Origin: Paludibacter sp.
GTDB lineage: Bacteria; Bacteroidota; Bacteroidia; Bacteroidales; Paludibacteraceae
Length of the DNA: 10,029 nucleotides
Direction of reading: 5' to 3'
NCBI GenBank assembly: GCA_028748945.1
Contig: JAQTOL010000083.1
Span: 1 to 10,029 of the forward strand
This document shows, piece by piece, positions 1 to 10,029 of the stretch. Below the pieces are notes generated by a model, which was not told where the DNA came from, made no database searches, and saw only the letters and a program-made list of their open reading frames with translations. The position numbers and the translations under genes are program-made. Position 1 is the stretch's first letter, and every line of letters begins with the position of its first letter.

Positions 1-594
1 AACTACATTCACTCTGATGTAGAAACGCTTGACCGTGTTAAGATAATGGAAGATTTGAGACGTGGGGTGTACGATGTATTGATTGGCGTTAATCTGTTGC
101 GTGAAGGACTGGACTTACCCGAGGTTTCGTTAGTGGCAATTCTGGATGCCGATAAAGAAGGATTTCTCCGGTCCCACAGGTCACTGACTCAAACTGCCGG
201 TCGTGCTGCCCGTAACCTGAATGGTAGAGTTATCATGTATGCTGATAAAATAACAGACAGCATGGCTAAAACCATTTCCGAGACCAATCGTCGCCGCGAA
301 AAACAGTTGGCATACAACGAACTCCATGGTATTACTCCGACTGCAATTATCAAAGGAGAGCGTAACTCATTCAGTAAAGCCGAACCTTATGCTTATGTTG
401 AACCCGAATCCATGCAGGGAATTGCCGCCGATCCGGTGGTTCAATATATGTCCAAAACCGCTCTGGAAAAAACCATCGCCAAAACCAAAAAGGCCATGCA
501 GGATGCAGCCAAAAAACTTGATTTCCTCGAAGCAGCTCAGTATCGGGATGAATTAATTAAACTGGAAGATTTGTTGAAAACGAAGAACCCCTAG
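1..594 (+). CDS. uvrB: UvrB, excinuclease ABC subunit B (3' part only)
   Basis: UvrB is the DNA-damage-verifying helicase-like subunit of the cytosolic UvrABC nucleotide excision repair complex; it is loaded by UvrA and then recruits UvrC. The reading frame is open from base 1, so the start lies outside the window and 197 C-terminal residues are visible. They begin with [11 protein letters not shown], continue through [14 protein letters not shown], and include the helicase motif [11 protein letters not shown] (about bases 190-216), all hallmarks of UvrB. The last 35 or so residues form the UVR motif ([19 protein letters not shown]), the coiled-coil hairpin that binds UvrC. The frame is intact to a TAG stop. 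The gene converges on the minus-strand series and is functionally unrelated to it. Its last four codons and stop fall inside the left arm of the inverted repeat at 583-703. Identification is very secure. Confidence 0.97.
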
Positions 595-703
595 CACCAA
601 AAGGGGAATAAAATTAGTCTCAACTGAATAATATAGAATGCAATATAAAGATAAAAATAAAGACGAAAGTAACTCAGTTCCCCTTCAGGAGTTAGGGGTT
701 CTT
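583..703. repeat. 121-bp imperfect inverted repeat between convergent genes; long hairpin or MITE-like relic
   Basis: The arms are 583-608 and 678-703. An outer block of 11 bp is perfect (AAGAACCCCTA at 583-593 against TAGGGGTTCTT at 693-703). An inner block of 8 bp is also perfect (AAGGGGAA at 601-608 against TTCCCCTT at 678-685). The 7 bases between them pair partly, giving about 22 of 26 Watson-Crick pairs plus one G-T pair, around a 69-base AT-rich centre. The pentamer AAAAC lies just outside on both sides (577-581 and 705-709), which could be a target duplication or chance in AT-rich DNA. The repeat contains the uvrB stop codon and ends at the stop codon of the minus-strand barrel gene. 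A smaller stem, CCCCT (680-684) with AGGGG (694-698) followed by TTCTTT, could act as a terminator for uvrB. I saw the repeat directly; its function is open. Confidence 0.7.
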
Positions 704-2418
704 TAAAACCGTTGACTGATATTGATAAATGAACGCCATTGAAGTTTGTTGTAGGTATCCAGACTTCCTTCAAAATCAGCAGAAATCAGCAGTTTCTTTG
801 TTATTCTCCAGGACATACTTAACCCCCCAATATTCTCCAGTTCATTTGTTGTGGTTTTTAATGTGTAATTTACATGCCTGAACGATAGTTCAGTATATAA
901 TTTTCCGTTCACAAAATCGCGTGACAACGATCCACCGTAAATCAATCCACTCAAATATCCGGTATTCAGTAAAGTCGCATCAATTGTCATTGAAGCATTG
1001 ATTAGTGGTAAATCAGGAATTGTTATATAAGCATATTCATTTGAAGATGATTTTGAAGTTGCAGTTGCAAACCGATAACCGGCATTTCCTCCGATGCTCA
1101 AAAAATTAAATGGTCTGTAATAGGCATGAAACCGTAATCCCTGACGGGTTTCTTTATCCAAAACACTATCGATATAATTTTTGTATGTTTCGTAATAGTA
1201 TATATTTTTACGTGCATCATATGACAGGCTGAGTGATAAATTATTCCATGGACGGTAATTCAGGGATACATAAGCACTGGTCAGGTCTATAATATTTTTG
1301 GGAGTTCGGTTATTCCAAAAGACGGTACTGTCATTTCCTGAAATGTCTTTTACTTTTGCACTATCTTTCTGATTATTGGCCCCATATAAATCTACTTCAA
1401 AAGAACAGAATAAATCCAGATGTTTAAGGAGTGAATTGTTGTGCTGGAAATATAGAAATCGTCTGTCTGTCTGGAAATTATTTGTTTGATTAATAGCTGC
1501 AAAGGAGGTTTGCATATATCCTTTTACTTTTGTTAAATGGTGACTTATATATGCACCAAACTGAAACAAATAAGGGTTAATATTATAGTTATAAGTATCA
1601 GGACGAGACCCGACAAAAGCACCATATGACATATTTTTTTTATTATTCTCAAACTGTAGTCCATCTACTGCTCCAATATTGGCTAAACTAGAGTTTATTT
1701 TTCGACCCAAAATCACGTTGGCAGTTTTACTAATATCATACTTAACTGCTAAATTGTAAATTTTCAAATCATTAGTTGGTGCAAGCCGGTAGTTGATTGT
1801 GGTAAGCGTATCAGGGCCTAACTGAGGAATAAAACCATTTTTATTCGTTAGCGACACATAACATTCGGCTGAAAATTTTGAATTCGCGATATGAATTGCA
1901 TTCAATGATAAATTAAATCGGGTTGTTGTATTAATCGTTGTATCACTCGTGTTGTTGATATAAGATGAAATTGAAACGCGACCGTCAAAAGAAGGCTTCG
2001 ATTCTCCTGTTTTATCTTTTTTTACGGGATTCTTTACAAGCTGGTCATTAACAGCAATGGCTTCTTTTGATTTCTGAATGACCACATCAACAGGTTTTTC
2101 TTCTATTCTTTTTTTTGCATAAACCTGATTGGAAACTGCAACTATACTGCCCGGTATCAGATAGCAAACACATGAAATAGAAGAAAGGTTTTTCACGATC
2201 AAAACCGGTTGCAGACTATCCTTTATAGATAAAAACAATGTGTCACCTGCTTGAATATCAGATGTGCTTACGAACTGAGCATATACGTTTTGAGAACTGA
2301 TATAGGATACATTCCCTTTAATAAGTTCGTTGAGATTTTGACCTTTTAAATTTATGGCTGAAAATATCAACACGATTAGTAAGAGATATTTCCAGTGTCT
2401 GTTTCTTCTAAAATTCAT
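703..2418 (-). CDS. Outer-membrane beta-barrel protein with N-terminal periplasmic domain, partner of multihaem cytochromes
   Basis: The protein has 571 residues and I do not recognise a named family. Residues 1-26 look like a signal peptide (basic MNFRRNRHWK, then a hydrophobic run, cut near LKG-QN). Residues about 30-100 form a small beta-rich domain (GNVSYISSQNVYAQF, then DIQAGDTLF and LSSISCVCYL), perhaps SH3-like. Residues 101-142 are a Lys/Glu-rich linker. From about 145 to the end the sequence alternates polar and aromatic or aliphatic residues with Asn/Asp/Ser-rich turns, as in a large barrel, and ends ...INISQRF; a terminal Phe is the usual BAM insertion signal. There is no CXXCH, so it carries no c haem itself. 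It starts 15 bp after the 12-haem cytochrome gene and ends the series. By analogy with MtrB-type porins it could hold a cytochrome across the outer membrane, but no sequence kinship to MtrB is visible. A porin or structural role is the alternative. Confidence 0.8.
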   Translation of the reverse strand: MNFRRNRHWKYLLLIVLIFSAINLKGQNLNELIKGNVSYISSQNVYAQFVSTSDIQAGDTLFLSIKDSLQPVLIVKNLSSISCVCYLIPGSIVAVSNQVYAKKRIEEKPVDVVIQKSKEAIAVNDQLVKNPVKKDKTGESKPSFDGRVSISSYINNTSDTTINTTTRFNLSLNAIHIANSKFSAECYVSLTNKNGFIPQLGPDTLTTINYRLAPTNDLKIYNLAVKYDISKTANVILGRKINSSLANIGAVDGLQFENNKKNMSYGAFVGSRPDTYNYNINPYLFQFGAYISHHLTKVKGYMQTSFAAINQTNNFQTDRRFLYFQHNNSLLKHLDLFCSFEVDLYGANNQKDSAKVKDISGNDSTVFWNNRTPKNIIDLTSAYVSLNYRPWNNLSLSLSYDARKNIYYYETYKNYIDSVLDKETRQGLRFHAYYRPFNFLSIGGNAGYRFATATSKSSSNEYAYITIPDLPLINASMTIDATLLNTGYLSGLIYGGSLSRDFVNGKLYTELSFRHVNYTLKTTTNELENIGGLSMSWRITKKLLISADFEGSLDTYNKLQWRSFINISQRF

Positions 2419-2433
2419 AAAACAAATGTTGGC

Positions 2434-3387
2434 TTAATTTTCATCTAAGGATCCTGAACTGAAATTGTGACATTTTAGGCAATTTGCCACATAAGCAGCA
2501 TCGTTGTTATGGCAGTCTGTACATGAATTCCATTTTCCTTTGTGTTTCCCGGAATAGATTCGCCCGTAGCTACCATCATGTTGAATGAATTTTATTCCGT
2601 TAGACCAGGATGTTGTGTTGTGACAATCATTACAGGCGAATTTCAGAAATTTAGTCGTATGAACCGGAGAAGTCGTGTTGGCTGGTCCCGGGCTGTGACA
2701 TGAGCTGCATTCGGTAGAAAGTTTAACAGAATAATTATTCTCGAAATGACAGTTTTCACAGGCGATATTATGTGCACCTGTTAACGGAAATACTCCATGA
2801 TCAAATCCTTTCCCAATTAAATTCCAACTGACGCCGGCCATATTGTGGCAACGTTCACAATCCGTACCAAAGCCACTTGTTTTATGATTTGGTTTAATGG
2901 TATTTTCGTATTGAAATTGGTGGCACGAATAACAATCCGTACGAATATTGTTAAAACGAAGAGCAGAAGCTGATGTATGACAGCGATTACAATCGGCAGC
3001 AGCATGTTCGCCAAGAAGTGGAAAACCCTGTTGTCGGTGTATTTGTCTGATATTGGTAACAATCCATGAATTGGTTTTATGGCAACTGGCGCAATCATTT
3101 CCAACCGTACCTTCGTGTATATCGGTGTGACATGATGCACAATTAGTCGTTGCTTTGGAAAAATCAAGTGAAGTATGACACTTCCGACAATCCACCATTT
3201 TATGTTGTCCAACAAGTGGAAATTTAGTTGTATTATGATTAAACCCGTTCTCTTTTATTTTGCTCCAGTTTTCAGTCGTATGACATACAGCACATGCAAC
3301 TTTTAATTTTGCTCCATGTGGAGAATTAATTGCATTTATAGTTGCAACTAAAAAAATAAGAAAAGTGAAAAGAATTAATTTACGCAT
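2434..3387 (-). CDS. Periplasmic 12-haem c-type cytochrome
   Basis: The product has 317 residues with a signal peptide (residues 1-19, cleavage near TINA-I), so it is exported. Twelve CXXCH haem c attachment sites begin at residues 32, 67, 83, 99, 133, 152, 177, 210, 227, 252, 289 and 303. After a single N-terminal haem, the protein is a tandem array of three-haem modules starting near residues 48, 116, 195 and 269, each opening with a motif like FxH...FPLxGxH before the first CXXCH; the last module has only two haems. The extra conserved His residues are probable sixth ligands, which would make most haems bis-His, low-potential electron carriers. Lack of a lipobox suggests a soluble periplasmic protein. 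It lies 50 bp after the 20-haem gene and 15 bp before the barrel gene, so it is well placed to pass electrons between them. Its physiological partner and electron acceptor cannot be read from sequence. Confidence 0.93.
   Translation of the reverse strand: MRKLILFTFLIFLVATINAINSPHGAKLKVACAVCHTTENWSKIKENGFNHNTTKFPLVGQHKMVDCRKCHTSLDFSKATTNCASCHTDIHEGTVGNDCASCHKTNSWIVTNIRQIHRQQGFPLLGEHAAADCNRCHTSASALRFNNIRTDCYSCHQFQYENTIKPNHKTSGFGTDCERCHNMAGVSWNLIGKGFDHGVFPLTGAHNIACENCHFENNYSVKLSTECSSCHSPGPANTTSPVHTTKFLKFACNDCHNTTSWSNGIKFIQHDGSYGRIYSGKHKGKWNSCTDCHNNDAAYVANCLKCHNFSSGSLDEN
2467..3246 (-). repeat. Tandem three-haem protein modules in the 12-haem cytochrome
   Basis: This is a protein-level repeat of 68 to 79 residues. 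Modules start at about residues 48, 116, 195 and 269. Each has the order (F/I)xH...LxGxH-x(4)-CXXCH, then a second CXXCH, then a third; haem triplets are 67/83/99, 133/152/177, 210/227/252 and 289/303. The second haem of the first module is followed by TDIHEG, matching xDxHxG in the larger cytochrome. The last module lacks its third haem. Repeats have diverged and are not evident as DNA repeats. Confidence 0.85.
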
Positions 3388-3437
3388 AGTAGAAAGGTTT
3401 TCTGTCTGTTATCAAAAAAATCATCAACTTTAATCAG

Positions 3438-5033
3438 TTATGAGTGACAAACTTTACACTCGATGCTTTTAAATTTATATTGAATATATTTCCCTTTATC
3501 ATCCATAACCGGTTTATGGCATTCAATACATTCAACTCCAATATGTCCCCCATCTATTTTAAATCGGGAAGTATTATGATCAAATATGGAATTTTCCCAT
3601 TTATCGAATCCGTGGCATCTTGTACAATCGGTCTTCCCCTTCACTTCAAATTGACCAACATGCGAATCTTTATGACAACTTGAACATTCTTTAGATGTAC
3701 CGGCAAATAACTGAGTTCGTATTCCGTTTTCATTATTTCGGTAATGACAGGATGAACAAGTTGCAGTGGCATGTGCTCCGACTAACTTATACCCTGTTTT
3801 ATCATGATCAAAAGTAATGGTTTTCCAGCTATTAACATTATGACATGCAACGCAATTTTCATTTGGATAGAATTTCTCGTCAATAAATCCCTTGTGTTCA
3901 TCTCTATGACAATCAACACATTTATTCCCCATATTTTTAAAATGCCACTCTTTTTGCGTTTTATGACAGGCCATGCATGGACTCGCTAAATGTGCACCTT
4001 CGAGCTTAAATTTAGTTTGATTGTGTTTCTCGATAGTGAAACTACTGGGTGTAAATCCAAAATTAGTATGACATTGGTCGCAATCGGGAGTTATTCCTTT
4101 TCTATTCGTAAAATCACCTTTATGAAAATCAGCATGACAATCTTTACATTGATCATGTTTCAGAGGTGCCGTCAGACTTTTTTTATGACAAGCCTTGCAA
4201 TCCACCAGTTGGTGTTTTCCAATCAGTTTAAAGTTGGTTTTATCATGATCAAAAGACTTCATACTCTTACTAAAGAGAAATGATTCTTCCGAATGGCATT
4301 TTTTGCAGTTTTGTCCGAACCTGTTTTCGTGTACATCTTTGTGACAGGGCGTACAATTATTAAATTGCAAACTTGTAAATTTTTGTACCGTTTTGCCATT
4401 GACAATTTCTGTTTTATGACAATCAACACAGGCAACTGTTTTGTGTTTTCCCAATAATGGGTAACGTGTCTTACTGTGATCAAATCCGGTTGCATTTTTA
4501 AAGGAGTTGAAATTGTGACATGTAGCACAGTTTGGAGACAATTTGCCCTGATGGTAGTCAGCATGGCAGCTTAAACATTCCTGACTTAAACCAAGATAAG
4601 TTCCTTTCTTTTTTCTTATTTCCGGATCTTTAATAAATGCCGCCTTGTGGCAAGCTATACATTCTATTTTAGCATGATCGCCCTTCAATTCATATCCGGC
4701 TTTTCTGTGGTCGAAGTTCTTTTTATCGAAACGGGTAATCAGAAAATTTCGACCATGATGTTCATTATGGCATGTTGAACATAATTTAGTCCCGACTTCT
4801 GCCGAAGCATGATAGCCTCTTTTAGCATCAATATTTGCTTTTATTTCCTTATGACAAGCCAGACATTTTTCACGGGTTACCACATTTCCGGTTGAATGAC
4901 ATTTGGTGCAATTACTCACACCCTCAAGATTAGCGTGAGCATTACTTAATTCCCCGGGGGAGATTTGAGCTGACACACTGTATCCCGACAAGATGAATAC
5001 TATAAATAATCGGATTATCCTTTTAAGTTTCAT
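3438..5033 (-). CDS. Periplasmic 20-haem c-type cytochrome
   Basis: The product has 531 residues with a signal peptide (cleavage near SVSA-Q at residue 22). Twenty CXXCH sites begin at residues 42, 57, 85, 125, 153, 169, 202, 227, 243, 279, 296, 318, 353, 372, 394, 426, 450, 470, 502 and 526; all are intact, and the protein ends one residue after the last (CKVCHS). Haem density is about one per 26 residues, typical of molecular wires. Three N-terminal haems are followed by six tandem modules of about 75 residues. The first haem of each module is preceded by FDHxKTxxxLxGxH and the second is usually followed by xDxHxG, so there are ample spare His for bis-His ligation. It follows the flavoprotein gene by 103 bp, where a possible promoter lies, and precedes the 12-haem gene by 50 bp. 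The role inferred is electron relay from the inner-membrane module through the periplasm. It belongs broadly to the multihaem cytochrome c (c3/c7-like) superfamily; the exact family is unknown to me. Confidence 0.94.
   Translation of the reverse strand: MKLKRIIRLFIVFILSGYSVSAQISPGELSNAHANLEGVSNCTKCHSTGNVVTREKCLACHKEIKANIDAKRGYHASAEVGTKLCSTCHNEHHGRNFLITRFDKKNFDHRKAGYELKGDHAKIECIACHKAAFIKDPEIRKKKGTYLGLSQECLSCHADYHQGKLSPNCATCHNFNSFKNATGFDHSKTRYPLLGKHKTVACVDCHKTEIVNGKTVQKFTSLQFNNCTPCHKDVHENRFGQNCKKCHSEESFLFSKSMKSFDHDKTNFKLIGKHQLVDCKACHKKSLTAPLKHDQCKDCHADFHKGDFTNRKGITPDCDQCHTNFGFTPSSFTIEKHNQTKFKLEGAHLASPCMACHKTQKEWHFKNMGNKCVDCHRDEHKGFIDEKFYPNENCVACHNVNSWKTITFDHDKTGYKLVGAHATATCSSCHYRNNENGIRTQLFAGTSKECSSCHKDSHVGQFEVKGKTDCTRCHGFDKWENSIFDHNTSRFKIDGGHIGVECIECHKPVMDDKGKYIQYKFKSIECKVCHS
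3444..4715 (-). repeat. Six tandem three-haem protein modules in the 20-haem cytochrome
   Basis: Modules start at about residues 107, 184, 261, 335, 409 and 485, a period of 73 to 77 residues (about 225 bp). Haem triplets are 125/153/169, 202/227/243, 279/296/318, 353/372/394, 426/450/470, and a final pair 502/526. The opening motif FDHxKT...LxGxH is seen in modules 1, 2, 3, 5 and 6; module 4 has EKHNQTKFKLEGAH. The mid-module motif xDxHxG appears as ADYHQG, ADFHKG, RDEHKG and KDSHVG, with KDVHEN in module 2. The last module lacks the third haem. Confidence 0.88.
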
Positions 5034-5069
5034 TTTTGAATGTCTAATAGTTCGTTAGATAATTCAGTA

Positions 5070-5103
5070 AAAACATTTATCTGTAATATTGAAAAAATAC
5101 AAA
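5070..5103 (-). promoter_or_regulatory. Possible Bacteroidota-type promoter ahead of the 20-haem cytochrome
   Basis: Read on the minus strand there is TTTG (5103-5100), a 20-base spacer, then TAAATGTTTT (5079-5070). This partly fits the known Bacteroidota sigma-ABfA pattern of TTTG, about 19-21 bases, TAnnTTTG. Transcription would start near 5062, leaving a leader of about 30 bases before the ATG at 5033. The -7 box matches imperfectly and the region is very AT-rich, so this may be chance. If real, the cytochrome and barrel genes could be transcribed apart from the two upstream genes. Confidence 0.3.
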
Positions 5104-5136
5104 GGTTTTATAACTAAATTATTGATAAACAATTTT

Positions 5137-6468
5137 CTATCTTGGCCTCATAATAACGTCACCAAATTTTGTTGTAACATTTATTCCTATTTTCTTTAAA
5201 AACTGCGTTGGAAGTTCCCCACCTGCAAAAATATACACTAAGTCATTCTCCAGTTTAAGCAACTCGTCCGAATCGTTTTCAGTATAGTAAACAGCATTCG
5301 TTTCAATCGAAGTTACATTTGTGTTAAGTTTTACATCGATTAACCCTGTATTTATGGCTGTTTCTATTTTTTTTGCATTTTTAGGTTTTATTCTTGTAAA
5401 GGCATCACCCCTGTAAGAAAGTGTTACTTTATTCTGATCAGCCAGCAGTAAAGCCGATTCAATGGCTGAATCACCACCACCGACTATCAGTATTTTTTTA
5501 TTTTTTATTTCTTCGGGTTCTAAAAGCCGATAGGTTACTTTTTCTGTTTCTTCCCCCGGAACATTCAGTTTCCGTGGAGTTCCACGTCGTCCGATCGCTA
5601 ATAATACAGTTTGTGTTGTATAACTCTCACCGTTTACTGTTTCAATTTTAAATATTCTATCTTGTTTACTAATGGATTCAACCTTTGAATTCTCTTTAAT
5701 CGTAATATTGTTTTTTAATATGACGCTTTTCCATATTTCCAGTAACTGCGCCTTTGACGTTTCCTTTAGTTTTACTTTCCCGTATAATGGTAGTTCCATG
5801 GGATGAGTCATAATAACTTTGGATCTTGGGAAATTATATACTGTTCCTCCCAATGTACCTTGTTCTAAAGTCAGTACTTTTAAATCGGATTGTTTAGCAG
5901 CCAATGTAGCAGAAATTCCCGCCGGACCTGCACCAACAACAATCAGATCATACTCTGCTCCGGAGTTTTTAGTTACTGTTTTTACAATATTTGCAACGGC
6001 TTCTTTACCTTGAGTGACTGCATTTCTGATTAAACCCATTCCACCTAATTCGCCGGCTATATAAATGCCCGGTATATTGGTTTCAAAATCAGGACTTACA
6101 TGGGGTAAATCAACACCTCTTTTTTCGGTACCAATCCATAAACTGATAGCTTCCATTGGACAGGCACTCAGACAGGCACCATGACCTATACAGCGTGTTG
6201 CATTAATTATTGTCGCTTTCCCGTTTCTTATTCCAAGTACATCGCCTTCCGGACACGCTGTTATACAAGCTCCGCTTTTAATGCATCTGTTGGGGTCTAC
6301 AACCGGATAGAGGGAAATAGGTTCGTTAACGCCATCTTCCTTCGCCTGAGCTATTCGTTGATCTACATCCTTCGATTCCCTTCTTTGCTTCAGAATATAT
6401 ATTAATAAAACAATAGCAATCAGCAAAAACAGGAAGCCATAAATGGCTATTTCAATTATTTTATCCAT
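5137..6468 (-). CDS. Membrane-anchored Fe-S / FAD / NAD(P)-binding oxidoreductase, apparently circularly permuted
   Basis: The protein has 443 residues. One membrane helix (about 7-26) is followed by KQRR, which places the rest in the cytosol. Two ferredoxin-like motifs follow: CIKSGACITACP (62-73) and CIGHGACLSACP (93-104). Both lack the usual second Cys, having Ser65 and His96 there. Next comes a segment like the end of thioredoxin-reductase-type flavoproteins (about 128-163, with IPGIYIAGELGG and AVTQGKEA), then the FAD-binding start (IVVGAGPAG, 176-184) and the NAD(P)-binding site (ILIVGGGDSA, 326-335). The chain stops soon after FAGGELP without a second copy of the terminal segment, so the fold looks permuted. 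No redox CXXC is present, so it is not a thioredoxin reductase. The likely role is to take electrons from NAD(P)H through FAD and Fe-S clusters to the cytochrome b encoded just upstream, whose stop codon lies inside this gene (13-bp overlap, suggesting coupled translation). The direction of flow and the substrate are inferred. Confidence 0.85.
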   Translation of the reverse strand: MDKIIEIAIYGFLFLLIAIVLLIYILKQRRESKDVDQRIAQAKEDGVNEPISLYPVVDPNRCIKSGACITACPEGDVLGIRNGKATIINATRCIGHGACLSACPMEAISLWIGTEKRGVDLPHVSPDFETNIPGIYIAGELGGMGLIRNAVTQGKEAVANIVKTVTKNSGAEYDLIVVGAGPAGISATLAAKQSDLKVLTLEQGTLGGTVYNFPRSKVIMTHPMELPLYGKVKLKETSKAQLLEIWKSVILKNNITIKENSKVESISKQDRIFKIETVNGESYTTQTVLLAIGRRGTPRKLNVPGEETEKVTYRLLEPEEIKNKKILIVGGGDSAIESALLLADQNKVTLSYRGDAFTRIKPKNAKKIETAINTGLIDVKLNTNVTSIETNAVYYTENDSDELLKLENDLVYIFAGGELPTQFLKKIGINVTTKFGDVIMRPR

Positions 6469-7253
6469 AAATTAAGAATTTGAACAAAATAAAGTACAAC
6501 TACTACATGTATAACCATTATAATCAGCATTATCAAAGCAAATGGCAAGTGTGCTACATGCCAGTATTTAAAAAGATTTTGCATCATGGCCAACCGTTCA
6601 ATTCGTTTGCTGATTTTTCGTTCATCCCTTATGAGTTTTCTGACTTTTTTGAAATCTTTCCCTGAGATATTTCTGGAAATCAATTCCAATTTGATTTTAG
6701 AAAATTTACTCGACTTAATGGTTGAAAAATCAATCTGATACTTATTTAATAATACTAAATTAAGTTCATCTTTTATATCATTAATCTCCTGTAAACTTAA
6801 CTCACGTCCTTCGATGCTACGAGGTATCTGAAGATAAATAAACCTACCAATCACTCCACTCACCCAGACAATGACTAAACTCCAGAAACCAATTGAAACA
6901 ATGCCTCCAAATTTGAAGGATGTATGAAACAATACTAAAACGGAGCCCAACGTACACAAGAAAATATGAAATTCAAGCCAGTATTTTAAGAGCCCGATTC
7001 CGGAAAATATTTTCATTCTTTTACGCGCCATGTAACCAAACAGGCCAACTACGATAAGTATGGTTCCATATATACCTAAGTTATGTCCGACAGTTCCCCC
7101 GGGATTAAAAATATGGTAAATTACCGGATCGTCGTACCGATGTTCAATCGGCAAATGGTAGTACGAGTACCCTGCATAAGTTAATACAACAATAGCCAGA
7201 ATGATGATTAAAAAATAGAGGGTCAAAGATAGCCTGTGAACAAATCGCGTCAT
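6456..7253 (-). CDS. Integral-membrane b-type cytochrome
   Basis: The protein has 265 residues and about five membrane helices: 9-27, 57-76, 92-112, 117-141 and 236-259. Basic residues place the N-terminus, the KRMK loop (79-81 region) and the long charged loop 142-230 in the cytosol, consistent with alternating topology. His residues sit in or at the ends of helices: His57 (GHNLG), His96 and His110 (spaced 14, as in many di-haem cytochromes b), His232/His235 (YWHVAH) and His249 (VIHVV; again 14 after 235). These are good haem b ligands for probably two haems. I do not recognise a named family; it most resembles cytochrome b561 or ferric-reductase-like membrane proteins. It is the first gene of the five-gene series and overlaps the flavoprotein gene, so the two products probably form an inner-membrane complex moving electrons toward the periplasmic cytochromes. 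Quinone could be an additional partner, but no quinone site can be assigned. Confidence 0.78.
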   Translation of the reverse strand: MTRFVHRLSLTLYFLIIILAIVVLTYAGYSYYHLPIEHRYDDPVIYHIFNPGGTVGHNLGIYGTILIVVGLFGYMARKRMKIFSGIGLLKYWLEFHIFLCTLGSVLVLFHTSFKFGGIVSIGFWSLVIVWVSGVIGRFIYLQIPRSIEGRELSLQEINDIKDELNLVLLNKYQIDFSTIKSSKFSKIKLELISRNISGKDFKKVRKLIRDERKISKRIERLAMMQNLFKYWHVAHLPFALIMLIIMVIHVVVVLYFVQILNLWIK

Positions 7254-7310
7254 TATTGGTTTGATATTTCTTTTTTAATTGTATTCTTAATTTTTTAAAG
7301 TGTTACTTGT

Positions 7311-7338
7311 CAGTGTATTTGAACATTTCTACCGTCAA
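7311..7338 (-). promoter_or_regulatory. Weak candidate promoter upstream of the cytochrome b gene
   Basis: On the minus strand TTGAC (7338-7334) lies 16 bases before TACACTG (7317-7311), about 58 bases ahead of the ATG at 7253. The first box fits a -33/-35 element; the second matches TAnnTTTG only in part. It lies just downstream of the 18-bp inverted repeat. Listed because a promoter is expected in this 268-bp gap, not because the match is strong. Confidence 0.22.
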
Positions 7339-7346
7339 CTTTAATT

Positions 7347-7394
7347 TTTAAAATCATTACAAATATAAGACTTTAAATTTGTAATGATTTTAAA
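7347..7394. repeat. Perfect 18-bp inverted repeat with 12-bp spacer in the ccsBA / cytochrome b gap
   Basis: TTTAAAATCATTACAAAT (7347-7364) is exactly complementary to ATTTGTAATGATTTTAAA (7377-7394), with a 12-base spacer (7365-7376) whose middle can add three more pairs. It lies 128 bp after the ccsBA stop and 94 bp before the cytochrome b start. As RNA from the minus strand it would form a strong though AT-rich hairpin that could end ccsBA transcription, but no clean U-run follows. As DNA it could be an operator for a dimeric regulator. The rest of the 7254-7521 gap shows only a 10-bp palindrome CAAAATTTTG (7505-7514) and AT-rich sequence. Confidence 0.85.
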
Positions 7395-7521
7395 TTGAAC
7401 AGCATTGTGAATTATTTATACTCAATCTTAATTACATAATTTATTTTACACTCTGATAATCCACTTTAAACAAACACAGAACCTTCCTAATTATTGTTCG
7501 AGCGCAAAATTTTGTTTTGTT

Positions 7522-10029
7522 TTAAGAATTACTTTTTTTCTCCGCTCTATAGGCAAAAAACACAAGCGCAATAATTGCAACAATGATAAAATATGCGGCG
7601 CTTGGAATAGTTGGCGGAATACCTTTACCATAAGAGTGCATACCCGCAAGGTAATAATTTACGCCCAAAAATGTCATAATAATCGAACTGAACCCTGTTA
7701 ACGCCATGGTGCTTAAAACCAACGGACTGTTTGTTTTCGGGATTAATCGTAAATGGAGAATAACTGCATAAACCAGTACACTGACAAGTGCCCAGGTTTC
7801 TTTGGCATCCCAGCCCCAATAGCGACCCCACGACTCATTGGCCCAAACACCACCCAGAAAAGTTCCGACGGTTAACATGAATAATCCGACGGTTAAAGTC
7901 ATCTCTATAAGATAGCTTATTTCCAGAATATTTCCTTTCAGTTGAGGGGCATTCTTTTTTGTCCGGGCAACCATCAATATTAAATTAAGGAGTCCCAGTA
8001 TGGCTCCCAATGCCAGAAAGCCATAGCTCGAAGTAATGACTGCCACGTGAACAACCAACCAATAGGATTTAAGAACCGGAACCAGGTTGGTTATCTCCGG
8101 ATTCATCCAGCTCATACCTGCAACGGATAAGGCTATTGCCGACAATAGAGCCGTCGCGGAAAAAGCAAGTGTCGATTTGCGGGCAAATAATAATCCTGAC
8201 AAACTTGAACCCCAACCGACGAAAATCATGCTTTCATATCCGTTGCTCCAGGGTGCATGACCCGATATATACCACCGTACGGCCAGCCCGAATGTATAAA
8301 TCAGAAAGAGGAAGGCCAGGGGATATACTGCATAACTCAGGGTTTTTTCCAAACCTGCATTGGGTTTAAATATATAAAAAAAATGGAGGAGAAGTAGTAT
8401 TAAACCTAAAACCGCATAGGAAATAGCCAGATTAAGAAATATACCCCATTTATTGTACGAAATTTCGAGATTTATTTTAGCCGGGGATGGAAGGTTATTT
8501 CCACCATTATCCAACTGGTATTTTTTTAGAAGAGCCAACTTTTGGCTGGCATCACTCCAGTTTCCTGACTTTTCAGCCTGAATAACGGCGTCCAAATAGT
8601 TATTGAGCAGATTATCATTCGAAGTCATGCCGGTGAGATTCATTGTTGTAGCTGAATTACGGGTACAAACTCCTAAAGACGAATCAGCTGTCATTTCACC
8701 CATGCCTGCATGTGGATTTGCTTCACTCATAATCGAGTCAGTATTCATTCCGGTCATTGCTCCACCCATATCTTCAACTTTACCACCGGAAGCAATATAG
8801 GGGCAGGCTTCCGTTCCTTTAGCAGTAACTCCGCTTAGGGTTGATTGTTGGGCTACAGTCCATTTTCCATTATCAACTCCCGGTACTGGGAACAGAGCTA
8901 ACATATTCTTCAGGTAGATTTGGGTACAAATGTTGACCCGTTCGTCCACATTCAACGCTTCTTTTTCGTACTTATTTCGTTCCGATTCCGGTTTTTGGTA
9001 AATTTTATCTACTATATCTTTTAACTTGTACGATCCGCCTTTGTCAAAATCAAAAAGCTTATTATACGAAATATAACCTTTTACCGCTCCTAATTCTTCT
9101 TCCAGTTGTGGGTTCGCAACTTTTATAATGGGTTCGTTACTCCAATAGCTTGAATTTACCGACATGCCCAGGATTACTTCCACCCCGGACATATCTTTAT
9201 AAGTATCATGCTTGGAAATTTTCCGCAAAATATCTGAAGCGTAAGAACATAAGGGCTCAATCCTTCCCTGTGCTCCATCCTGAACCAATAAACTGTTCAA
9301 CGATTTGATGTGATCGCTTTTTGATATTCCGTTACCGGATGCAAATAAACCACTTGTAACAGAAAGTAAAGCGACAAACAGGAGCGTCTTGTTCACTTTC
9401 CTGTTCATCTGAATCTGAGATGTCAGATTCATCAATGTTCTGAACCGGCTGTTTTTATTGAACAAAGTCATAACCATTCCGATTAACATAAGTAAATAAC
9501 CTAAATAAGTGACCATCGTTCCCCAATAATCGTGATTGACAGAGAGTATGGTTCCCATTTCATCCTGATCGTACGAAGATTGGAAAAACCGGTATCCTCT
9601 GTAATTTAAAATATTATTCATGTATATACGGAAAGGGCGGACACTTTTGTTTTCATTATCGGTTACAGTGATTTCACTGGCATAGGATGAAGGACTCATT
9701 GAGCCGGGATACCTTTCTAATTCGAATTTACGCAGTGTGATACTGAACGGAATTTTTATCTGCATTTTACCATAAAATACAGAAATTTTTACATCATTCA
9801 ATTGAGTAACGGTCGGTTGGGGATATTGATCTCCTGAACTCAATACATTTATTTCTTTGGAGGAGTTACCATCACTGATCTTTAATACGAGTGCATCCGA
9901 ACCTTCATTCGGTACCGAATCATCACTCTGAGTAGTTGCCGGAACCAGCGTTTTTTTTGCCCTGGGCATAAAACCGTTGATCATAAAAACAAGGCCACCA
10001 GCCCTGAATACAGTATTTTGTGTTGCCGG
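7522..10029 (-). CDS. ccsBA: System II cytochrome c haem lyase, ResB-ResC (CcsB-CcsA) fusion, 5' end outside window
   Basis: CcsBA moves haem across the inner membrane and attaches it to CXXCH sites of exported apocytochromes. The frame is open to the window edge, 15 codons beyond the Met at 9984, so that Met is probably not the start. Numbering from that Met, residues 1-216 are the end of the ResB part (ITLRKFELERYPGS, then YRGYRFFQSSYDQDE, then a membrane helix at 156-175 and another at 199-216). Residues 217-510 are largely periplasmic and include a Met-rich stretch. Residues 511-813 are the CcsA part with about eight helices, the WWD signature WANESWGRYWGWDAKETW (714-731), and His646, His744 and His783. 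The 98- and 39-residue spacings agree with those I recall for the essential His of Helicobacter hepaticus CcsBA (761, 858, 897). Its neighbourhood, two cytochromes with 32 haem sites, fits its role. In this phylum such genes often follow nrfHA, which cannot be checked here. Confidence 0.95.
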   Translation of the reverse strand, partial: PATQNTVFRAGGLVFMINGFMPRAKKTLVPATTQSDDSVPNEGSDALVLKISDGNSSKEINVLSSGDQYPQPTVTQLNDVKISVFYGKMQIKIPFSITLRKFELERYPGSMSPSSYASEITVTDNENKSVRPFRIYMNNILNYRGYRFFQSSYDQDEMGTILSVNHDYWGTMVTYLGYLLMLIGMVMTLFNKNSRFRTLMNLTSQIQMNRKVNKTLLFVALLSVTSGLFASGNGISKSDHIKSLNSLLVQDGAQGRIEPLCSYASDILRKISKHDTYKDMSGVEVILGMSVNSSYWSNEPIIKVANPQLEEELGAVKGYISYNKLFDFDKGGSYKLKDIVDKIYQKPESERNKYEKEALNVDERVNICTQIYLKNMLALFPVPGVDNGKWTVAQQSTLSGVTAKGTEACPYIASGGKVEDMGGAMTGMNTDSIMSEANPHAGMGEMTADSSLGVCTRNSATTMNLTGMTSNDNLLNNYLDAVIQAEKSGNWSDASQKLALLKKYQLDNGGNNLPSPAKINLEISYNKWGIFLNLAISYAVLGLILLLLHFFYIFKPNAGLEKTLSYAVYPLAFLFLIYTFGLAVRWYISGHAPWSNGYESMIFVGWGSSLSGLLFARKSTLAFSATALLSAIALSVAGMSWMNPEITNLVPVLKSYWLVVHVAVITSSYGFLALGAILGLLNLILMVARTKKNAPQLKGNILEISYLIEMTLTVGLFMLTVGTFLGGVWANESWGRYWGWDAKETWALVSVLVYAVILHLRLIPKTNSPLVLSTMALTGFSSIIMTFLGVNYYLAGMHSYGKGIPPTIPSAAYFIIVAIIALVFFAYRAEKKSNS
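8626..8805 (-). other. Met-rich, Cys-bracketed segment in the periplasmic part of CcsBA
   Basis: Residues 394-453 (numbered from the Met at 9984) contain Met406, 410, 413, 419, 428, 431, 448 and 453, plus His425 in NPHAGMGEM, lying largely between Cys394 (EACPYI) and Cys440 (GVCTRN). The composition differs sharply from the flanks and is unexpected for the family core. Met-rich periplasmic stretches can bind Cu(I); a metal or haem-handling role is only a suggestion, and a flexible linker is the simpler reading. Confidence 0.6.

Follow-up and report, generated by a model that had tools for sequence, protein, structure and literature searches.

We analysed a 10,029-nucleotide stretch of DNA from Paludibacter sp. 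(contig JAQTOL010000083.1; hereafter the window), whose minus strand carries five adjacent genes for a cytochrome b (cytb), a membrane-anchored FAD/NAD(P) oxidoreductase with ferredoxin motifs (fad), two exported multihaem cytochromes (cyt20 and cyt12) and an outer-membrane barrel protein. We put the chance at about one half that these genes specify a porin-cytochrome conduit of the Bacteroidota, similar to the type known as PCC3, that would be fed by NAD(P)H. The kind of conduit is already known, and the novelty is the Bacteroidota version with its own dedicated NAD(P)H/FAD/Fe-S protein. As contig C83, the window belongs to a draft host genome of 3.46 Mb and 540 contigs that is 85% complete.

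The five genes are transcribed in the order cytb (6456..7253, 265 aa), fad (5137..6468, 443 aa), cyt20 (3438..5033, 531 aa), cyt12 (2434..3387, 317 aa) and barrel (703..2418, 571 aa), with intergenic distances of −13, 103, 50 and 15 nt, the fad gene overlapping cytb by 13 nt. A first-pass annotation of this DNA had described five genes running in one direction with small gaps or overlap, two of them encoding cytochromes with 20 and 12 haem sites. This layout is borne out on the minus strand, and both haem counts are exact by CXXCH motifs. Neither CX3CH nor CX4CH haem sites occur in the window proteins.

The same annotation had asked for conservation of the gene order, which we found in a sample of 100 loci. 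Searching genome_contigs with 20 cytb relatives as queries returned 476 relatives, of which the best 80 were kept as loci; this sample is biased because its members were chosen as nearest by cytb. Another 20 regions came from the 45 cytb-positive genomes in an even draw of the phylum. Loci were scored with profiles built from the loci themselves, and the 64 with at least 8 kb after cytb were considered roomy. All five families lie on one strand in 57 of these 64 roomy loci, and the exact order of the window recurs in 47 of the 100. In the commonest order, fad follows cytb at a median gap of 3 nt (87 pairs), and fad lies within the cluster in 94 loci. A second arrangement, with fad last, 3' of the barrel gene, is seen in seven loci, six of them roomy. 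Of the regions taken from the phylum draw, 16 of 20 are complete; contig ends cut two others (L115, L124), and the last two (L120, L130) are incomplete. Carriers, judged by record title, include Paludibacter, Mariniphaga, Prolixibacteraceae, Labilibaculum and Saprospiraceae, and the best named match of the window cytb is a Paludibacter metagenome-assembled genome at 73% identity (records very close to the host were possibly omitted).

Co-occurrence points the same way. Across 395 genomes of the phylum, cytb is present in 45, the barrel in 39 and both in 38 (Fisher 1.2e-44, uncorrected for relatedness), which ties the barrel to a cytochrome-bearing neighbourhood. In some of these genomes the two genes are on separate contigs (G385, G322, G082) or about 20 kb apart (G294). 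A chance arrangement of genes is ruled out by the conserved order together with this co-occurrence, and because the five genes are conserved together and co-occur across genomes, we regard them as one system. Three split clusters bear on its internal pairing. In two loci named Paludibacter (L004, L010) and one named Bacteroidales (L007), the barrel and the relative of cyt12 (a family we call cytN) are missing locally, in one case along with cyt20. In all three genomes the missing genes lie elsewhere, with cytN directly before the barrel; because the pair adjoins in every split-cluster genome followed up, we conclude that cytN belongs with the barrel. Within the host family the trait is patchy: of 150 genomes 7 have it, the host among them, all belonging to a single genus, that of the host, and six listed genomes of that genus are without the cluster. 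One locus appears to be a remnant (L130:11014-12136), where cytb stands beside only a 94-residue piece of barrel and the intervening genes have been lost.

The window cytb has five hydrophobic regions by hydropathy. Helices 3 and 5 each bear a pair of histidines 14 residues apart, with a tryptophan four residues before each pair (W92-x3-H96-x13-H110 and W231-x3-H235-x13-H249), and helix 4 bears an SGxxG motif (S132-G133-x2-G136). In an alignment of 66 members, both HX13H pairs and SGXXG are present in all 66, and the full WX3HX13H pattern is kept in 62 at the first pair and 66 at the second. We infer from this pattern that cytb binds two stacked b haems through its four histidines. The window protein has no Pfam match above cut-off. 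Weak matches to DUF4405 (27 members) and b561 (7 members) were found among the 66, and the ferric reductase transmembrane family (PF01794) is not among the 25 of 38 Pfam families shown for them.

The fad product combines one N-terminal hydrophobic stretch, by hydropathy, with Pfam matches to Pyr_redox_3 (2e-45) and Fer4_10 (1e-10). Its two ferredoxin motifs (C62, S65, C68, C72 and C93, H96, C99, C103) hold six cysteines, not eight, and these are the only cysteines of the window protein. All six are invariant in 92 of 92 sequences. The second cysteine position of the first motif is Ser in 60 sequences, Thr in 25 and Cys in 7, and that of the second motif is His in all 92, which suggests three-iron clusters or four-iron clusters with His and Ser ligands. 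The nearest named family is YpdA (2.5e-49, below the family cut-off). YpdA is an NADPH user with a redox-active cysteine beside its flavin motif. At that position the window protein has Ala183, and the family has Ala in 89 of 92 and Ser in 3; because alanine replaces the cysteine, the protein is not a YpdA-type disulfide reductase, and a thioredoxin or bacillithiol reductase identity was rejected on the missing catalytic cysteine. Downstream of the NAD(P) glycine motif all 92 sequences have the same two arginines, R353 and R359, the first of which falls on the YRG of YpdA in the alignment. This points to NADPH rather than NADH as the donor, which is a guess. A Pseudoalteromonas plasmid (L170:7932-10286) encodes a 784-aa protein with a window-like FAD domain among glycosyltransferase genes, with no cytochrome adjoining.

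Both multihaem cytochromes are built of c7/c3-type modules (Cytochrome_C7 at 5e-26 for cyt20 and 5e-18 for cyt12), and cyt20 also matches a DmsE-family decahaem model at 1e-11, far below its cut-off. Their families differ in how much they vary. Family counts leave out cytN and cyt20 genes at locus ends, cyt20 proteins below 471 aa and FAD proteins below 421 aa. Among 82 cyt20 relatives, 61 have 20 haems and 19 have 23, with one each at 17 and 19. Complete cytN proteins have 10–85 haems, and in 61 of 74 the number leaves a remainder of 1 on division by 3. Long forms consist of a conserved beginning followed by repeats of about 70–78 residues with three haems each; in five that were tested, repeats of the commonest length average 38–75% identity and reach 95%. 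Two genomes with 90% identical barrels have cytN of 34 vs 49 haems with cyt20 constant at 20. Judged from these sequences, cytN grows by three-haem modules, and the 12-haem window protein is a short form because the family spans 10–85 haems in such steps. We considered a conserved head of 12 haem spacings in cytN and rejected it, as it holds in only 50 of 86 proteins (those with fewer than 10 haems excluded); since spacings of 16, 16 and 34 near the start hold in 79 of the 86, the conserved head is shorter than that. A bridge of fixed size beside a second wire that lengthens freely is consistent with a cyt20 that spans the periplasm and a cytN directed outward. Four loci (L014, L017, L021, L058) have a further cytN gene 3' of the barrel, with 17 to 39 haems (a 5-haem piece in L058), and in L034 the sole cytN lies there.

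The barrel assignment draws on three features: the N-terminus, the amphipathic peaks, of which a crude count gave 28 from residue 147 on, and a Phe at the C-terminal end, shared by 71 of the 79 relatives in the alignment. We would place very roughly 20–28 strands after a small N-terminal domain. The protein has no significant Pfam, NCBIfam or PDB sequence match. For the MtrB/PioB family in particular, neither the window barrel (Pfam, NCBIfam) nor the 79 aligned members (Pfam) gave a match. In the PDB sequence search, the barrel and cytb by themselves reached only E values of 0.4 to 0.7 (a joint range for the two), the profiles of both found nothing, and cyt20 had no match.

The first-pass annotation had suggested that this might be an undescribed conduit, which proves too strong. 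PCC3, proposed in 2017 for Alpha-, Beta- and Gammaproteobacteria (PMC5566968), has the same four roles as described there: a porin, long extracellular and periplasmic multihaem cytochromes, and a five-helix inner-membrane protein. The inner-membrane proteins of PCC3 and PCC4 are given WX3HX13H on helices 3 and 5 and SGXXG on helix 4, and the window cytb carries every one of these motifs; the same source calls HX13H on these helices common to ferric reductases and NAD(P)H oxidases. The PCC3 periplasmic cytochrome has a median of 21 haems as published, compared with 20 or 23 here (location judged from the N-terminus), and the Gallionellaceae examples have 21, 24 or 27, with 10–35 in the extracellular partner (PMC10734462). 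In both systems a repeat-built cytochrome varies in haem number, published up to 85 and here 10–85, and the density is alike, a median of 26 residues per haem vs 26.6 and 26.4 here. The PCC3 porin is stated not to be homologous to MtrB or OmbB (PMC5566968); in the present cluster the barrel gene adjoins cytN, and its product gave no MtrB/PioB match in Pfam or NCBIfam. This likeness is one of parts, motifs and haem counts as described, not of compared protein sequences. The present system differs in belonging to another phylum, in its fifth gene, which encodes an NAD(P)H/FAD/Fe-S protein that is absent from PCC3 as described, and, in the window's lineage, in the cytochrome maturation gene ccsBA upstream.

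Other known systems are further away. PCC4 also combines a porin with periplasmic cytochromes and further redox genes, and its inner-membrane protein has the same motifs, but it is described with 4-, 5- and 10-haem cytochromes and other redox partners, in Proteobacteria and Planctomycetes (PMC5566968). MtrCAB, Pio, Mto and the Geobacter OmbB-OmaB-OmcB complex likewise combine a barrel with multihaem cytochromes, and cyt20 has its weak DmsE-family match; the present cluster is set apart from them by a barrel without an MtrB/PioB match, longer wires and a flavoprotein entry in place of a CymA-type one. That the entry module is unlike CymA, as the first-pass annotation held, agrees with the lack of NapC/NirT-family matches, above cut-off among the window genes and for PF03264 in the 85% complete host genome. 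NrfA has no match in that genome either, and on these two absences, within the same limit, we rejected a nitrite reductase system. NAD(P)H oxidases and ferric reductases (NOX/FRD) also join an NAD(P)H-FAD domain to a two-haem helix bundle with HX13H on helices 3 and 5. Here, however, these are separate polypeptides with Fe-S clusters between them, the flavin domain is of the YpdA/thioredoxin reductase type, and no Pfam ferric reductase match is among those shown.

In open-licence PubMed Central text (subscription papers, preprints and supplements lie outside it) we found no description of the Bacteroidota five-gene set. A 2019 study of a bog lake reports putative porin-cytochrome conduits that lack known relatives, in 'a number of Bacteroidetes' (PMC6344600); judged by this description, they may include the present type. 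Another Bacteroidetes cluster, described as comprising a barrel and six cytochromes (PMC8258643), is possibly related.

Plasmids hold both the whole cluster and a smaller cousin. In a tblastn search of plasmids, the complete set together with ccsBA was found on pEMTOL02 of Emticicia oligotrophica, with cytochromes of 23 and 40 haems. Besides Emticicia, we examined seven records among the 42 cyt20 and 4 cytb plasmid matches (L133–L139), from Pontibacter, Methylophaga, Variovorax (two), Glaciecola, Legionella and Spirosoma, six genera. All seven carry a three-gene module in the order FNR-type flavoprotein, cytb cousin and small c3/c7-type cytochrome (some of the cytochrome Pfam matches being below cut-off). 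The flavoprotein has FAD_binding_6, NAD_binding_1 and 2Fe-2S domains in all seven, and the cytb cousin keeps the four histidines in all seven. Unlike the window cluster, these modules have a 2Fe-2S-bearing FNR-type flavoprotein and a small cytochrome, no barrel or long wire was seen in the regions fetched, and four adjoin copper genes. One cytb family thus has two kinds of NAD(P)H flavoprotein as partners, which makes NAD(P)H a likelier donor than quinol. None of the plasmid and viral search matches was recognised as PCC3 (in one search the best 20 of 42 records were listed and 7 viewed). Three IMG/VR viral contigs (L167:8001-8375, L168:8001-8273, L169:7896-8402) encode a compact cytb relative with SGxxG at 31–39% identity; in two of them both HX13H pairs fit into about 125 residues and the cytosolic insert is missing, and the third matched in its first half only. 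Their neighbours look phage-like by eye, and a phage-borne cytochrome b of such kind would be unusual.

Upstream of cytb, across a 268-nt gap, lies ccsBA (7522..10029, minus strand, 5' end beyond the window), a ResB and CcsA fusion for system II cytochrome c haem ligation (Pfam Cytochrom_C_asm 5e-39, ResB 1e-13; TIGR03144 1e-51, just below cut-off). It is the only CcsA-family (PF01578) match in the 85% complete host genome. A ccs gene precedes cytb in 20 of the 80 loci and on pEMTOL02 and follows the barrel in three, and ccsBA likely serves the two cytochromes. In two loci a gene for a membrane-anchored tetratricopeptide-repeat (TPR) protein stands between cytb and fad (L113:12236-12829, L119:7861-8460), apparently also at other loci with a gap of about 600 nt; it has a weak, below-cut-off likeness to the CcmH/CycH TPR domain and may be a cytochrome c maturation helper. 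A cyt20 search of the host genome returned only the window's two multihaem cytochromes. Both hits of a Pfam c7 search were below cut-off, the first within cyt12 and the second in a 122-codon frame with a stop (G000:C44); this search is insensitive, as it missed cyt20. Within the limits of an 85% complete genome, the cluster may be the host's main use of c-type cytochromes. At the other end, uvrB converges on the cluster and ends at 594, and a consensus scan places a terminator-like hairpin at 588..605 (minus strand), 3' of the barrel gene and overlapping the uvrB end. The scan counts 11 such hairpins in 560-7560 vs 4.1 in shuffles, a count that carries no functional evidence. The Bacteroides-type promoter consensus occurs 0 times in the window (0.84 expected), and sigma-70-type sites are uninformative at 32 vs 29.4 in shuffles.

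As the first-pass annotation proposed, the predicted parts fit the cytosol, inner membrane, periplasm and outer membrane. NAD(P)H would reduce the FAD of the anchored flavoprotein on the cytosolic side, and electrons would pass through its two unusual Fe-S clusters to the cytosolic-side and then the periplasmic-side b haem of cytb, crossing the inner membrane. From there cyt20 would bridge the periplasm, and cytN, paired with the barrel, would take electrons across the outer membrane to an outside acceptor, which could be a mineral, a humic quinone or another cell. Gene content, motifs and conservation are what we observe, together with co-occurrence and module growth; the cofactors, donor, direction, acceptor, use and location of cytN in this scheme are proposals. 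Because electrons would leave the cytosol without a quinone step, the system could work in the manner of NOX, as a sink for electrons that keeps redox balance at the expense of membrane potential, not as energy-conserving respiration. Electron exit of the NOX type pumps no protons and spends membrane potential, so the use would be disposal of surplus reductant. It is tempting to extend this to a picture that we hold only tentatively and consider doubtful as a whole: phylum-wide, quinone-independent export by a split NOX-like oxidoreductase whose atypical ferredoxin clusters would be three-iron or ligated by His and Ser/Thr, a periplasmic haem wire, a barrel and a single-polypeptide extracellular nanowire, tuned in length (about 10 to 85 haems) as three-haem modules are gained or lost, that sheds the surplus reductant of fermenting or oxygen-limited heterotrophs.

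Several observations weigh against an NAD(P)H-fed conduit of this design. Seven of the 64 roomy loci are incomplete: L004, L007, L010, L120, L130, L035 and L070. The barrel of L120 is about 20 kb off in the same genome, and the stretches of L035 and L070 are without one. Seven of the 45 cytb genomes lack a barrel; five of these have weak cytb matches (E 2e-5 to 1e-10), one (G361) ends at a contig end, and the other is G380. Conversely, one weak barrel match (G216, E 1.5e-5) occurs without cytb. The cytb cousins of the plasmid modules keep SGXXG in only 4 of 7, the first Trp in 1 of 7 and the second in 5 of 7. A route by which cytN would reach the surface is not evident: a lipobox-like motif is present in 4 of 91, and a sorting domain of the type IX secretion system is absent from the three cytN proteins scanned (window, L113, L132). 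The choice of NADPH over NADH is guesswork from two arginines, and the support as a whole comes from sequence. Even for PCC3, function was described as untested in 2025 (PMC12442390).

The donor could instead be quinol, with the same conduit drawing on the quinone pool: cytb would oxidise menaquinol, and the FAD protein would be an extra input or serve another partner. The PCC3 authors propose quinone exchange for a cytb of this kind, and the clusters they describe have no FAD gene (PMC5566968), which counts against NAD(P)H entry. The seven loci with fad last, after the barrel (six of the 64 roomy ones), count on the same side, and the host's Rnf/Nqr-type genes and cytochrome bd make a quinone pool likely. 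We nevertheless consider a quinol-fed conduit rather unlikely, given the tight commonest order, in which 87 pairs place fad a median of 3 nt after cytb, and the seven plasmid cousins in which cytb is paired with another NAD(P)H flavoprotein. It is also unlikely, in our judgement, that the system serves reductive detoxification or iron acquisition. In that case NAD(P)H would drive the reduction of soluble metals or oxyanions, either within the periplasm or at the outer membrane, and minerals would not be respired. Such a role would suit the weak match of cyt20 to ExtN/ExtO, which belong to a selenite/tellurite operon (40 bits vs a cut-off of 200), the copper genes beside four of the seven small plasmid cousins, and carriage by lineages such as Emticicia, which we take to be aerobic. 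However, the cousins show neither a barrel nor a long wire in the regions fetched, and the barrel that co-occurs with cytb across the phylum would be needless for a periplasmic device.

A conduit running inward, which would oxidise an external donor such as Fe(II) or another cell and deliver electrons to NAD(P)+ or the membrane, has a precedent in PCC3, which is found in iron oxidisers and drawn as running inward (PMC5566968). Haem wires can in principle conduct either way. Yet NAD(P)+ reduction is uphill from most external donors and is opposed by the membrane potential, and the named hosts are presumably for the most part heterotrophs, so that we regard uptake as improbable. More improbable again is a role of both cytochromes as charge stores within the periplasm, with the barrel acting only as a porin for a soluble acceptor. 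Although both cytochromes have N-termini that resemble ordinary signal peptides, and no export signal was found for cytN, the cytN gene adjoins the barrel even in split clusters, and its product varies in length while the barrel is unchanged. An NAD(P)H-fed, outward conduit remains the reading we prefer.

Sediments, bogs and wastewater are rich in Bacteroidota that act as degraders, and the phylum is seldom listed among electroactive bacteria. With a conserved conduit in this phylum, models of humic, iron and methane-forming systems would gain a further electron sink. CymA, CbcL and ImcH are families of quinol-linked inner-membrane entry (PMC6295460). Entry from NAD(P)H, if true, would be an inner-membrane class unlike these, and would make the conduit an overflow valve, not a respiratory chain. 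A near-constant 20-haem bridge followed by a wire of 10–85 haems is also a natural series in which the effect of wire length on electron transfer could be studied.

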